Source of the DNA: a virus
Direction: 5' to 3' (one strand)
DNA length: 21,677 nt
IMG/VR virus record: IMGVR_UViG_3300035701_000338
Coordinates: 1 to 21,677 of that record
In this document: in pieces, positions 3,208 through 13,639 of the stretch
Layout: every line of letters starts with the position of its first letter
Position numbering within the stretch: position 1 is the first letter of the stretch
Notes under the pieces: model-generated
What the model saw: only the letters and a program-made list of their open reading frames with translations
The model's database searches: none
Told to the model about the DNA's origin: nothing
Program-made: the position numbers and the translations under genes

Positions 3208-3558
3208 ATGGGAACGAATATGAGCACACTAAGCGAAACTCTTGAGCGGTGCCTGAGACAAATACAAAAGCCCACAGGGACTGCAAAGGTCACTGCAAAG
3301 GTCACTGCATGTCAGCCTTTGATGGTTCAATCCAAATCCCTATACTTCAAAGAGGGAACGTCCGATAAGGAATATCATATTCAAATCACCCAGGTGCATC
3401 CAGCACTGTCTGAATATCTCGTGAATTTTCAATATGGTCGGCGCGGGAATACACTCAAGAGCGGATCAAAAACAGAAGCACCTGTGACTCTGGCAGAGGC
3501 TGAGGACATTTACGATCTCGTTGTGCGCGAGAAAATAGCAAAAGGATATCGGGGGTAA
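3208..3558 (+). CDS. single-domain WGR protein
   Basis: Residues about 35-116 form a complete WGR domain: LYFKEG-SDKEYHIQI, then YLVNFQYGRRGNTLKSGSKT with YGRRG in place of WGR, and a closing helix EAEDIYDLVVREKIAKGY. In cellular proteins the domain binds nucleic acids and occurs in PARPs and MolR-like proteins; here it stands alone. The first 30 residues contain a tandem 12-base duplication (3280-3303) coding for a repeated TAKV. Start at ATG 3208 or ATG 3220; the SD is weak (GGGAAC before 3220). It lies 2 bases before the phosphoesterase gene. Confidence 0.85.
   Translation: MGTNMSTLSETLERCLRQIQKPTGTAKVTAKVTACQPLMVQSKSLYFKEGTSDKEYHIQITQVHPALSEYLVNFQYGRRGNTLKSGSKTEAPVTLAEAEDIYDLVVREKIAKGYRG
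3280..3303 (+). repeat. tandem 12-base duplication within the WGR gene
   Basis: ACTGCAAAGGTC occurs twice head to tail (3280-3291, 3292-3303), followed by a partial third copy ACTGCA. In frame it repeats Thr-Ala-Lys-Val in the linker before the WGR domain, suggesting a recent slippage event in an unconstrained segment. Confidence 0.85.
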
Positions 3559-3560
3559 TC

Positions 3561-4214
3561 GTGCGTATAGTAGCGTTTTCAGACACACATGGCTATCACA
3601 AGAAATTGACGATTCCCGATGGGGATATGTTGATCTGTGCTGGCGATTTCAGTATGCGAGCGAAGATGCACAACGTGACTGAATTTGCAAGATGGTTCAA
3701 GGCACAGCCACACCAATATAAGATTATCGTTCCTGGGAATCATGATATGTTCTGTGAAGGAAACATCTCCTGGTGTCGGACAGAGTTTGAGCCTGCTGTA
3801 TTGCTGAATCACGAAGAAAAGGAAGTGGCTGGGTATCGTGTCTTTGGTTCGCCCTATTCCAGTGCCATTCACGATCCTTCCGATTGGTCCTTTGACTATC
3901 CTCCAGGTGGCCGTAAGTCAAAAGAATTGTGGGACTTCATTCCCAGTGGTATTGACATTTTGATTACTCATGGACCCCCAAAAGGCATCCTCGATCTTGT
4001 GAGATTTCCAGCATACGGTGAAGATCCTCATGTTGGTGATGCGAATCTCTTGGAGAACGTGAAGCGAGTCCTACCACGAATCCATCTGTTTGGACATATC
4101 CATGAGGGATCTGGATCGTACACAGCCGATACCTGGACCACGAAGTTTTACAATACTTGCATTTGTGACGTGCGATACGATCCCACAAATCCAGTGACCG
4201 TGATTGATTTTTAA
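3561..4214 (+). CDS. calcineurin-like metallophosphoesterase
   Basis: The GTG at 3561, with GGGGG just upstream, starts a 217-residue protein with the full metallophosphoesterase metal set: D8 and H10 (DTH), D29 (GDF), N60-H61-D62 (GNHD), H137 (THGPP) and H179/H181 (GHIHE). The THGPP and GHIHE spacing is like the MPPED/UPF0046 branch, whose members are nucleotide or cyclic-nucleotide phosphodiesterases, not the lambda-type protein phosphatase. The substrate cannot be read from the sequence. Close packing behind the WGR gene suggests a shared transcript. A role in degrading nucleotide signals or processing DNA ends is possible but unproven. Confidence 0.9.
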   Translation: MRIVAFSDTHGYHKKLTIPDGDMLICAGDFSMRAKMHNVTEFARWFKAQPHQYKIIVPGNHDMFCEGNISWCRTEFEPAVLLNHEEKEVAGYRVFGSPYSSAIHDPSDWSFDYPPGGRKSKELWDFIPSGIDILITHGPPKGILDLVRFPAYGEDPHVGDANLLENVKRVLPRIHLFGHIHEGSGSYTADTWTTKFYNTCICDVRYDPTNPVTVIDF

Positions 4215-8405: not shown

Positions 8406-10499
8406 TTAGGATGTAGCAAGGGAGCGATTGACTTGACGAATCCAACTCGTCTCATCTTTGTGTGCGGGAGCCATGCTCTGGTGAATAGTGCTTTGGTTTG
8501 TGGTGATATTTTTTACATTATTATTTACCACATTCGCATTAGTAGCAGGAGCGGCCCCTGTCCCAACTTCTGCATTGCGCTTTCTCTCATTCGCATTCGT
8601 AAGTTGCTCCCCCGTGATTGGCTGTCCAAGTGTCTGATTTTCCTGTGGACTCAACTCCGTGGGTGCTGATGGGAGCCCAACATTAGCCAAATCCGCTGCC
8701 TTATTCGTTATATCCTTCTGCAAGGCATCCATGTTAGGTTCTGGTGGGGTAGTGTCTTGAGCAAGAGTAACGGGAGTGGGAGCCGTATCTTCTTTTTTCG
8801 TTTCACCTGACAACATATCTTTGACGCCCTGTGTGACCATTGGGACCAGGTTCGCCATATGGCTGAATCTGTCTGGATCATTTTCTGGGGTCACCTTTTC
8901 TTCACCCTCTTTCGAATAAATCTCTGAATACACATCACGAATCACGCTGGCCACAAGGAATGGAAGACCAGCAATGGGGACACCACCAAGACCCTCCAAA
9001 ACTGCGCCTGTCATATCACCCTGGGCAAGTTTTTGACTAGCAAAAATTAATCCTGCGGCTACGGATGCGAGACCAAGAGTACCAGTACCAGCAATTTGTG
9101 CAGCGCCCTTCGTGACGATTTTTGGAATCGATTTCTTGAGGATGGCCTTTATGGCACCCTCTGTCAATTCGGGTGCAGCTTTTTTCGCTATTGCTGTGGC
9201 ACCATGTGCTACGGCACCTTTGGCACCATGCTCCATTGCGCCTTTTATAGACTCCAATCCTTCTCCAACCTTCACACCAGTCTCAAGCGCCTTCGCCGCA
9301 TGTGCACCGGTCTTTATGGCTTCTTTGCCACCTGCTTTGGCGAGTTTGGTAGCATCTTCCCCCACTTCAACAGCTTTACCTGCTATTTTTCCACCCAACC
9401 CAAGTGCTTTTAATCCTAGTGGTCCCAACATTTTGAGTCCATCGAGGATCAGTAGAGAGAGTTTGGCTATCGCTGCGCCGATTAATTTGAGTGGGTCTAG
9501 CAATTTTCCCAAGAGTCCACCAAACTTCGCCGCCGCAATACCCAATAGACCAAACCACCCCATGATGGTCTCCATCCAGCTTTTGGTGGGTTTGCCTGTC
9601 ACATCTTTCGTGACTTGGGTGGGCATGTCTCGCTTATGAAACTTATGCTTTTCCAGTTCGGCTTCATCGTGTAAAAATTCAAGATGATCGGCCTGCTTTT
9701 GTGCAAGATCCACCCCCTTTTGCTCAAATCCTTCTATTGTAGTAAGTCGCTTGAGGATCATGCCTAGCGTGGACGCCATTTGCTCCAGGAGACCCGATTG
9801 TCCACCACCCGATGCGGGAGATGGTCCGCCAGTTTCCCCTCCATAGGGAGTGGGCATTCCTTCGGTGGATTCTTCCATGCCTGGGGGAATACCGCCCTGA
9901 AGTCCAGCAGCACCACGGATTGCCTTTTGAGACCGACCCATAAGTCGTCCTGCCAACACGGTGGCTAACTTTGATCCTCCAGTCATTCGATGGACGATGT
10001 TGAGGGGATCGAACTTACGTTTTATCGCACTCTTGATTTGACGAGTCTTAAATCCAATCGCGGCACCGGCAGCACCACCAAGACCACCTCCACCAGCAAG
10101 ATGTTCAGCGGCTACATCGGCCATGGTGTTTTCATGGTGTTGAGTGACGGTGATCTGACTTCTAATATTTTTTAGTGCAGTGAGGATGTCCTTGCGTGTT
10201 TCTTTTCCCAGTTCAACTTTGGGCCCAGCCATTGGAGCCCTGTCTCGTCGCCCAGATTCCTTTGTTGAGGTCTTTCGTTCTTTGGTATTGTCCTTGGTGG
10301 CTTTGGTCTGCTCGTCGCTCGCGTTCTTAATTTTCTTCAACTGATCTTTCATAGAACCGAAATCATTCTGCGTTTCTTTTATGTAGTCCCTAAGATCATC
10401 CTTAGCGGGAGGCCCAGACATTTTTTGCATAGATTTACGCATATCGGCAAACTGGTCGCCCATTTCTTTGACTGTCTTGCTGAGATTATCGTCGGACAT
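8406..10499 (-). CDS. tail tape measure protein (gp29-like position)
   Basis: The 697-residue protein starts with a charged, helical, Lys/Gln-rich region (1-130), continues with Gly/Ala-rich parts and two long hydrophobic stretches (about 305-380 and 463-523), and ends in an Asn-rich tail; this composition is typical of tape measures. It lies directly after the gp26/gp51-like chaperone pair, the place of the tape measure in most tailed phages. At about 0.15 nm per residue it would set a tail near 105 nm, T4-like. I see no sequence match to T4 gp29, so the role is inferred from layout. AAAGG precedes the start, which overlaps the end of the frameshift extension. Confidence 0.72.
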   Translation of the reverse strand: MSDDNLSKTVKEMGDQFADMRKSMQKMSGPPAKDDLRDYIKETQNDFGSMKDQLKKIKNASDEQTKATKDNTKERKTSTKESGRRDRAPMAGPKVELGKETRKDILTALKNIRSQITVTQHHENTMADVAAEHLAGGGGLGGAAGAAIGFKTRQIKSAIKRKFDPLNIVHRMTGGSKLATVLAGRLMGRSQKAIRGAAGLQGGIPPGMEESTEGMPTPYGGETGGPSPASGGGQSGLLEQMASTLGMILKRLTTIEGFEQKGVDLAQKQADHLEFLHDEAELEKHKFHKRDMPTQVTKDVTGKPTKSWMETIMGWFGLLGIAAAKFGGLLGKLLDPLKLIGAAIAKLSLLILDGLKMLGPLGLKALGLGGKIAGKAVEVGEDATKLAKAGGKEAIKTGAHAAKALETGVKVGEGLESIKGAMEHGAKGAVAHGATAIAKKAAPELTEGAIKAILKKSIPKIVTKGAAQIAGTGTLGLASVAAGLIFASQKLAQGDMTGAVLEGLGGVPIAGLPFLVASVIRDVYSEIYSKEGEEKVTPENDPDRFSHMANLVPMVTQGVKDMLSGETKKEDTAPTPVTLAQDTTPPEPNMDALQKDITNKAADLANVGLPSAPTELSPQENQTLGQPITGEQLTNANERKRNAEVGTGAAPATNANVVNNNVKNITTNQSTIHQSMAPAHKDETSWIRQVNRSLATS

Positions 10500-10713
10500 G
10501 TTGGTTCCTTTGTGATGCTATTTCTGCGTTGCGTGTCTTTATACGTTCATTCTCTCGTTCGACTCTCTGTTGCACCAGGGTCAGAAACACCAATCGCTCC
10601 CAAGGCATCATGTTTTCAAGTTCTGAGATCGAGAACTTATGATCCTGGACCAAAGCGAATGTTGTGGTATAGTAGTTCGCTAGGTTATCATGGGCCAGGA
10701 TTAGACGAAAAAA
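10486..10713 (-). CDS. 51: gp51-like tail assembly extension, made by -1 frameshifting from gp26
   Basis: This minus-strand frame opens right after a TAG at 10716-10714 and runs to TAA 10488-10486, overlapping the tape-measure start. From the slip point it adds 73 residues. The segment NYYTTTFALVQDHKFSISEL and the following MMPWERLVFLTLV plus a charged helix are typical of gp51-like or tail-chaperone small proteins next to gp26. The coding character begins 30 residues before the first ATG in frame, so separate initiation would remove part of it. A T TTT TTC heptamer at the junction offers a way in. The fused product would be 319 residues. Confidence 0.75.
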   Translation of the reverse strand, partial: FFRLILAHDNLANYYTTTFALVQDHKFSISELENMMPWERLVFLTLVQQRVERENERIKTRNAEIASQRNQHVRR

Positions 10714-11444
10714 CTATCGAGTCCCTTCACCAGAATGTCTTCCTGCCGATCACACTTCGGGCACTTGAAATGTAATGTGAATTCCACTTTGGGCATGGTA
10801 TCAAAAAAGGCATCCATTTTTGCGACCTGCTCGTGGGTCAGATCATTCACAAAGTCGTTGACTTCAGACACCGGCACGTCCTTTGTCAACACCACTTCAT
10901 TTTTATCATTAATCGACTCAATGCAGTCTACCAGGAAGGCAAAGGCTTCATCAGATGGAAGGTCCTTGCGAGAGATATTACGGAACGCCTTGAAGGTGGG
11001 ATAGCGCAGGGTGATTCCCACATTCTCGGTCAATTGAATATATTTGCTGTGCTCTGGTGCGAACTGTGGTTTAATCTCAAGCAAGTTCACTTGATAGTCA
11101 GAGATCACGTTGCAGGATGCAGTCTCCCCACTTTCAACATTTGCTACGGGATTATTACACTTATAGCGCAGCGTCACTTCTTCTCCGATGCTACGGGCTC
11201 TGAGATTCAAGAATAGAAATTCAATATCAAAGAGTGGCAATTTGTCGATATCAATGCCAGAGATTTCTCCCACACAATTCTCAAGAATTTGTCGTGAGGT
11301 GTTAAGGACCGTGGTGGCATCCTCGGATTGCATCGCCATCATGAGAAGCTTCTCTTCTTTCACGAGAAAGGGTCGGAAGGAGACTTTTAATCCAGAGGGA
11401 CAGACAATATCATAAAGAGGAATCGCAAGTTTCGGAAGTGCCAT
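10701..11444 (-). CDS. 26: gp26 baseplate hub / tail assembly protein
   Basis: The 247-residue protein begins MALPKLAIPLYDIVCPSGLK and continues RPFLVKEEKLLMMAMQS, then DIDKLPLFDIEFLFLNLRA, the hallmark of the T4 gp26 family (Pfam T4_baseplate). In T4, gp26 acts in hub assembly before the tape measure and tube polymerise. Two cysteine pairs, one around residues 130-145 and a CPKC near the end, may bind zinc. An AAGGTG site lies before the ATG. The last codons hold the slippery heptamer, so two products sharing the N-terminus are expected. Confidence 0.88.
   Translation of the reverse strand: MALPKLAIPLYDIVCPSGLKVSFRPFLVKEEKLLMMAMQSEDATTVLNTSRQILENCVGEISGIDIDKLPLFDIEFLFLNLRARSIGEEVTLRYKCNNPVANVESGETASCNVISDYQVNLLEIKPQFAPEHSKYIQLTENVGITLRYPTFKAFRNISRKDLPSDEAFAFLVDCIESINDKNEVVLTKDVPVSEVNDFVNDLTHEQVAKMDAFFDTMPKVEFTLHFKCPKCDRQEDILVKGLDSFFV
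10707..10713 (-). promoter_or_regulatory. candidate -1 ribosomal frameshift site (T TTT TTC)
   Basis: In the gp26 frame the codons read AGT TTT TTC GTC TAA, so the heptamer has the X XXY YYZ phase needed for two-tRNA slippage and the stop follows one codon later. An SD-like AAGGGA lies 8 bases upstream (10727-10722), comparable to the stimulator of dnaX. A 6-bp hairpin (AGCGAA/TTCGCT, 10681-10676 with 10659-10654) lies about 25 bases downstream, farther than usual. P2 uses the related TTTTTTG at its E/E' site. Confidence 0.75.
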
Positions 11445-11459
11445 AATTATTCACCTTTC

Positions 11460-12155
11460 TTAAAATGGATTAATGCCCCTAAGTGCTTTAGCTGCTTTAC
11501 CGAGAATATCTGGTCCAGTCGCGGCCACTGGTGGCTTGGGTGACGCCGAGGTGGAAATGGGTTCCACAGGTTTCGTTGGTTGGGAGATACGATAATATTC
11601 AAATGCCATGGTCACACTCACGCGATGGAAGCCATCTTCTGACCAGGCCAGTGGCATTTGATTGACCGCAGTGGGGAACGCCTGAACGAGATTCCATATT
11701 GCTATAACATCGAGAGTGGCGTCTGTACCAAATCCACCGTTTTCTTTGTCTACGTCCTTTGTTGAGAACATGTCATATTGCACCAACTGCACATCGGTGC
11801 GATAGTAAGAGGGATAATTCAGGAGATTCGTTCTCGATTCAAAAATAGAATCCATCCAGGATTCAAAAAATTGACGAATGAAGAGTTCACGGGTTTCTAG
11901 GAACGTAAGTGTGGTTTCCTGATAACTGGATTCGTAGGGAGTTTTATAAGTCGGCCCATACACCTTCGAATCATTGCTCACCAATTGTCGTCCAGGGAGT
12001 TCAGCCGCTTCGCAGCGTAGGGCCATGGCTCGGTCATGCCCACCAAAAGTTGTAGAAAGCCCTGGCAACAGCGGAATGGCCAATTGGAAATGGCTGGTTT
12101 TGGAGACTCCCCCTCGTCGAAGGCCTGATAGGAATTGTTGATATATGCCACCCAT
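11460..12155 (-). CDS. tail-tube-fold protein, gp54-like tube initiator or gp19-like tube
   Basis: The 231-residue product shows the tube-protein pattern: LRCEAAELPGRQLVSNDSKV near the N-terminus, a strand/helix segment TLTFLETRELFIRQFFESWM, then a strand with IWNLVQAFPTAV and the closing LAWSEDGFHRVSVTMAFEYY. T4 gp54 and gp19 share this fold and the last segment resembles the T4 gp54 end. Position in the gp26/hub cluster favours gp54 (baseplate tube initiator) over the main tube protein, which is normally next to the sheath gene. GGAG precedes the ATG. Confidence 0.7.
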   Translation of the reverse strand: MGGIYQQFLSGLRRGGVSKTSHFQLAIPLLPGLSTTFGGHDRAMALRCEAAELPGRQLVSNDSKVYGPTYKTPYESSYQETTLTFLETRELFIRQFFESWMDSIFESRTNLLNYPSYYRTDVQLVQYDMFSTKDVDKENGGFGTDATLDVIAIWNLVQAFPTAVNQMPLAWSEDGFHRVSVTMAFEYYRISQPTKPVEPISTSASPKPPVAATGPDILGKAAKALRGINPF

Positions 12156-12808: not shown

Positions 12809-13639
12809 TCAGACGAAGTTGAAGGTCTTTTCGGTCACTACCTGGAAGGTCCACCCCTGATCCTTGCAGAATTCCTCAGCCGCTTGCCACTTTGCTTGAT
12901 TTGTTGCGATATCCGCCACTTCCTGAAGATATTGGCGCGATTTTCGTTTTGGGGCTGGACGAAGATTGGTTTGATAGTCTGGTTTGATTTCTATTATGTG
13001 TGTTTTTATTTCGCCTGTGCGCGTTTTGACTCTGATAAGAAAGTCTGGGAAATACCTCCTCACTCGATTCCTAACTGGATCGTAATATTTTATCACTAAT
13101 TCTTCACTTGCCCAAGATAGGACGCCTGGGGATTCATCTAGTTGCAACATAAATTGACGTTCCCAATTACTTCTATATACGATGTTTGTCACCATTCCTA
13201 CATATTTTTCTGGGTATTTTGGCGTGAAAATTCCCTTGTAACTCATTCTACCTCTACTCATCCTCAGCCCCCGTTCTCCTATGGTTTGGGTAAAAGTTCT
13301 AAATCTTCTAGTATACATGGTTTCTAATTGTTCTGTGGGAGTGTTTTTGTAATATTTACCTAGAGTTTTTTGGTAGAGTGACGTTCTTTGGTCTGGCGTT
13401 AATTGATTGTCACACTTCTTTTTCCTTTCAATTACAGTCATTTGTGCGTATTGATCTGTCAGAGTTTTTCCTATCTTCTCACTAATCGCAGTAAGTTTTC
13501 CAGATTTGTGCCTCTCTTCCCATATTCGTTTCATGTTTGCCCGAACCAGTTCTCCGAATTGCCCAGCACGAATGGGGTCATTTTTCAATGCAGCCCTATG
13601 CAACTTAGCCGCGTATGATCTGGAATTGGTGGTTTTCAT
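12809..13639 (-). CDS. 4: gp4-like head completion nuclease with N-terminal extension
   Basis: Residues 132-276 match the T4 gp4 head completion family (TnsA-like PD-(D/E)XK fold): MSYKGIFTPKYPEKY, then IVYRSNWERQFMLQLDESPG with E160, SWASEELVIKYY, RRYFPDFLIRV with D199, and HIIEIKP with E217 and K219. These residues form the expected nuclease core. T4 gp4 has about 150 residues; this protein has 276 because of a 130-residue basic helical region at the N-terminus, which resembles nucleic-acid-binding helical repeats only loosely. The start is supported by AAGGAG. It is the first gene of the minus-strand block and faces the gp48 gene. Confidence 0.85.
   Translation of the reverse strand: MKTTNSRSYAAKLHRAALKNDPIRAGQFGELVRANMKRIWEERHKSGKLTAISEKIGKTLTDQYAQMTVIERKKKCDNQLTPDQRTSLYQKTLGKYYKNTPTEQLETMYTRRFRTFTQTIGERGLRMSRGRMSYKGIFTPKYPEKYVGMVTNIVYRSNWERQFMLQLDESPGVLSWASEELVIKYYDPVRNRVRRYFPDFLIRVKTRTGEIKTHIIEIKPDYQTNLRPAPKRKSRQYLQEVADIATNQAKWQAAEEFCKDQGWTFQVVTEKTFNFV

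Follow-up and report, generated by a model that had tools for sequence, protein, structure and literature searches.

The window analysed here, a stretch of 21,677 nucleotides (positions 1 to 21,677 of IMG/VR record IMGVR_UViG_3300035701_000338), derives from an uncultivated T4-like phage. On its minus strand, a gp26-family gene, which probably encodes a tail assembly chaperone (TAC), sits between the tail tube gene and the probable tape measure gene. The features of this locus are as follows.

8406..10499, minus strand: probable tape measure protein, 697 aa, 3' of the TAC gene
10486..10713, minus strand: -1 frame extension of 75 codons plus stop, a gp51-like C-terminal segment (TAC-C) kept in relatives
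10642..10701, minus strand: candidate stimulatory stem beginning 5 nt 3' of the heptamer, from pairing and a fold z of -3.5 against synonymous resampling; outer arms 10701-10691 / 10652-10642, inner arms 10681-10676 / 10659-10654
10701..10703, minus strand: zero-frame stop TAA, one codon past the heptamer
10701..11444, minus strand: gp26-family ORF, 247 aa, short form (TAC-N); PF12322, E 2e-55; phrog_150, E 7e-62
10713..10707, minus strand: slippery heptamer T TTT TTC, in phase X_XXY_YYZ with gp26
10714..10716, minus strand: TAG of the -1 frame directly 5' of the heptamer, which excludes upstream initiation in that frame
10722..10727, minus strand: Shine-Dalgarno-like AAGGGA, 8 nt 5' of the heptamer, a possible stimulator judged by resampling z
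11460..12155, minus strand: tail tube protein; phrog_45, E 2.5e-30

The gp26 ORF contains a zinc-ribbon-like CxxC stretch. The 697-aa ORF downstream is probably the tape measure gene, as judged from its position, its length and the hydrophobic stretches of its product; it has no PHROG match, and a match to T4 gp29 was undetectable in KVP40, P-SSM2 and two relatives of the window phage. Elsewhere the window encodes, on the plus strand, a phage-borne TusA-like sulfurtransferase (118-363; PF01206, E 8e-16), an HD_4 domain protein that is possibly a small ppGpp hydrolase (448-957; PF13328, E 4e-18) and a small WGR-domain protein (3208-3558; PF05406, E 8e-5). A minus-strand gene (12809-13639) encodes a gp4-like head completion protein, in which a TnsA-like nuclease domain is accompanied by a long extra N-terminal region of about 130 aa.

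The 3' end of the gp26 ORF reads AGT TTT TTC GTC TAA, and its T TTT TTC is in the phase required for tandem -1 slippage. An earlier note on this DNA had described this ending and the in-phase heptamer; its coordinates are correct, with the gene on the minus strand. In the -1 frame, TAG directly precedes the heptamer, which is therefore the exact point at which this frame becomes open. It comprises 75 codons including the two Phe codons, and thus the 73 codons past the slip that the note had counted, and its stop at 10488-10486 lies inside the start of the next ORF (start 10499), with an overlap of 14 nt. The proposed gp51-like nature of the extension is confirmed by a match of residues 2-64 to phrog_634 'baseplate hub assembly catalyst' (gp51; E 4e-23). 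The extension also aligns to the C-terminal columns of phrog_150.

The production of gp51 as a separate small protein, by an internal start or by termination-reinitiation, would be an alternative to frameshifting. Some GenBank records omit the extension, others give it as a short 'gp51' with an internal start codon (for example in P-SSM2 and KVP40), and in the records of KVP40, RHph_I34, Cygsa01, Bhz51 and K475 the extension is annotated from a start that overlaps the gp26 stop. In the window, however, the first ATG of the -1 frame is residue 35, yet homology begins at residue 1-2, in agreement with the claim that the coding signal precedes the first ATG by about 30 residues. Before it, only a TTG at residue 21 could serve as a start, and no Shine-Dalgarno-like sequence accompanying it was found by eye. 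The place of the first ATG differs widely among relatives, with residue indices of 4 to 35, and in some no ATG precedes a conserved P-W-E-R motif. The conserved positions set in at the slip site (FFR..L.H..L..YY..NFA), upstream of the first ATG in most of the genomes. Conservation from the slip site onward, combined with a variable or absent first ATG, fits poorly with a conserved independent start. A separate start would also leave the codon choice at the two Phe residues (FF) unexplained, and it must be set against T4 gp51, which bears the same segment fused to a gp26 domain. We therefore regard a separately initiated gp51 as very improbable.

The earlier note had proposed aligning related phages for conservation of the heptamer and of the -1 frame, and both turned out to be widely conserved. 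The gp26 protein was used to scan IMG/VR, which yielded 80 loci with 31-100% identity, 79 of which carry an in-phase T TTT TTN at the gp26 end. The one exception, L024, has G TTT TTC (gp26 ORF end, about 3660-3690), which may reflect natural variation or an error in the sequence. All loci whose contigs are long enough carry the gp51-like extension in the -1 frame (the contig of L057 ends early). When GenBank phages and the results of further scans were added, the set grew to 102 loci, from which 46 representatives were taken at 85% identity. An in-phase T6 is present in 44 of these 46, mostly one codon 5' of the zero-frame stop; as a background, it occurs at 8 of the 10,152 remaining codon positions of the same genes. 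In all representatives but L024 (Cygsa01 set aside), the codon preceding FF ends in T, whichever amino acid it encodes; from codon usage, and uncorrected for shared ancestry, the probability of this pattern is about 1e-20. Among seven close relatives, differences at the first, second and third positions of -1-frame codons number 243, 144 and 576, a bias as expected of a translated -1 frame. A frame change caused by sequencing error was ruled out, because the same layout recurs in 79 of the 80 records.

The fusion might also arise at the level of transcription, if slippage on the T6 run added one extra U to some mRNAs. Runs of T8 or longer in some relatives (for example L020 and L030) would favor such a route. 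However, the run is no longer than T6 in the window and most relatives, its phase strictly follows X_XXY_YYZ, and candidate ribosomal stimulators are present, so that transcriptional slippage appears extremely improbable. For slippage by the ribosome, the first of these candidate stimulators lies upstream of the heptamer, where pairing with the anti-Shine-Dalgarno sequence exceeds that in synonymously resampled sequences (mean z -0.89, control +0.09; 45 representatives). The second is the downstream stem, which forms 10 of 11 outer pairs in the window; 8 to 11 of the 11 pairs are formed in five of seven sequences (the window and its close relatives). Compared with synonymous resampling, the downstream fold reaches z values of -3.5, -3.7, -3.2 and -3.0 (L001, L005, L007 and L008, respectively; control mean -0.5), and in the inner stem synonymous changes come in pairs (GCGAAC/GTTCGC and GCAAAC/GTTTGC). 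The same register as in the window occurs in L019, L038 and L041. A universal downstream stem was rejected, as the window's register is strong only in these three loci and in the window's close relatives; since most other relatives lack it, the stem is a clade feature. Neither the stem nor the Shine-Dalgarno-like sequence is universal across the family. In a number of loci (L020, L027, L029, L046 and others), a purine-rich GAGGG 5' of the slip site is complementary to CCCTC/CCCTT past the stop. The mean z of -0.89 and paired changes make a GAGGG/CCCTC pairing around the slip site suggestive.

One clade departs from the canonical site. Ackermannviridae (18 loci), Pseudomonas phage Cygsa01 and Vibrio phage K475 (together L115, L117, L118, L119-L133, L093 and L114) keep the -1 extension and lack the canonical heptamer; their sites read ATT TTC ATT TAA or similar, with exactly this sequence in 18 of 18 Ackermannviridae loci read. 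The complete genomes checked contain one gp26 gene each. In SPTD1 and Ea2809, homology begins at the Phe codon, and there is no ATG at this position. Phylogenetically, these phages form a supported clade, whose sister PhiW-14 has the canonical site. No further relatives of the Vibrio K475 gp26 were found in IMG/VR. The non-canonical site may point to a different, single-tRNA slip or to another route of joining the frames, a tentative reading that we consider somewhat less probable than even. If a slip is involved, our guess would be the re-pairing of a single tRNA-Phe from UUC to UUU.

For the window phage, -1 programmed frameshifting that yields TAC-N (gp26) and TAC-NC (gp26-51) from one gene is the best explanation, with a probability of about 0.95 on the strength of comparative sequence analysis. 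The joining of gp26 to a gp51-like extension by a -1 frameshift, the main proposal of the earlier note, is thus strongly supported. What the sequences show is the site, its conservation, a constraint on the -1 frame as coding sequence and a predicted chaperone-like fold of the N-terminal domain; the slippage itself, the slip rate and the roles of both products are inferred. The majority of ribosomes would terminate at TAA and release the 247-aa gp26, and a minority would slip one base back on T TTT TTC, by tandem tRNA-Phe re-pairing from UUU UUC to UUU UUU, and produce a 319-aa gp26-gp51 fusion. The fusion would thereby gain a helical extension, encoded just 5' of the tape measure gene. By analogy to gpG and gpGT of lambda, the short form may coat the tape measure protein, and the extension may recruit tail tube subunits.

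The predicted fold of gp26 agrees with a chaperone function. In the AlphaFold2 model (mean pLDDT 87), the N-terminal domain (about residues 1-96) has 3fgx (Z 7.5), 3klu (YqbN; 6.8) and 2ob9 (the HK97 tail assembly chaperone; 6.7) as its top structural matches, so that it is predicted to resemble the HK97/YqbN tail assembly chaperones. This agreement falls short of proof, because the Z scores are middling (below 8) and Foldseek alone gave no significant match (E above 0.4 for the HK97 TAC). A search of the gp26 profile against the sequences of solved structures returned no meaningful match. Full-length Foldseek matches to GTP cyclohydrolase were discarded owing to poor superposition (rmsd about 19).

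The analogy drawn earlier to lambda G/GT (chaperone, slip, extension, tape measure) holds for the layout and, tentatively, for the predicted fold. As in lambda G/GT and P2 E/E', a chaperone gene lies between the tail tube and tape measure genes, with a -1 slip near its 3' end and a C-terminal extension. In contrast to these systems, gp26 has no above-cut-off match to a Pfam TAC family (Phage_TAC_7, E 0.13), is longer, carries the CxxC stretch and uses another heptamer, that of lambda being G GGA AAG. A similar poly-T -1 slip at the TAC-N end is found in the Vandenendeviridae, in the TAC locus of the myovirus Adele (PMC12846349), which differs in its GTTTTT motif and belongs to another phage family.

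T4 itself has separate genes 26 and 51, as the earlier note stated; they lie on opposite strands, in a head-to-head arrangement that other members of the group share. T4 gp26 (208 aa) spans the entire PF12322 profile, and its C terminus falls close to the slip position; the FF codons are TTC TTT, and a slippery heptamer is absent from the end of gene 26. The view of T4 gp51 as a counterpart of the extension alone did not hold, since residues 1-201 of this 249-aa protein match PF12322 (E 4e-52). Its C-terminal part matches phrog_634, as does the extension in the window. PF12322 occurs in one copy in each checked genome with a -1 extension and in two copies in T4 and two T4 relatives, and gp51 sits on a long branch in the tree. 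By these profile matches, T4 gp51 is a full-length gp26 paralogue with an extension fused in frame, and T4 thus has one gene for the short form and another for the long form.

The link drawn in the earlier note from the assembly factors of T4 to tail chaperones in general is not new, having already been proposed in work from 2022. The abstract of that work is said to name genes 26 and 51 and to report frameshifting as conserved in several T4-like groups. An older account held that G-T frameshifting is widely conserved among phages with long tails, 'except T4' (Atkins et al., 2016; PMC5009743). As far as citing papers relate, T4-like chaperone genes were identified by Vladimirov, Gautam and Davidson (Virology 2022, 566:9-15; cited in PMC12846349 and PMC10885494), some T4-like phages have a short gene beside a longer fusion gene in place of frameshifting (PMC10885494), and poly-T slip signals occur in TAC-N genes of T4-like phages (cited in PMC12846349). 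The present finding is correct, and its mechanism is known in kind; the window adds one more well-supported case of a short/long tail chaperone pair in T4-like phages, not a new mechanism. Judged by these accounts, the gene family (gp26/gp51), the proposed short and long forms and the frameshifting in several groups are the same. What differs is that the phage is uncultivated; a clade-specific downstream stem and a clade that lacks the canonical heptamer are additions of the present survey, which the 2022 paper may already contain. The reading proposed here would correct the frequent annotation of 'gp51' as a free-standing stub, and it places T4 gp26 and gp51 in one protein family, with gp26 corresponding to the short and gp51 to the long form. 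T4 differs in that its two genes are separate and head-to-head and that gene 26 does not end in a slippery heptamer. Seen as the two-gene version of the frameshift pair, T4 genes 26 and 51 make the long-unclear role of gp51 testable.
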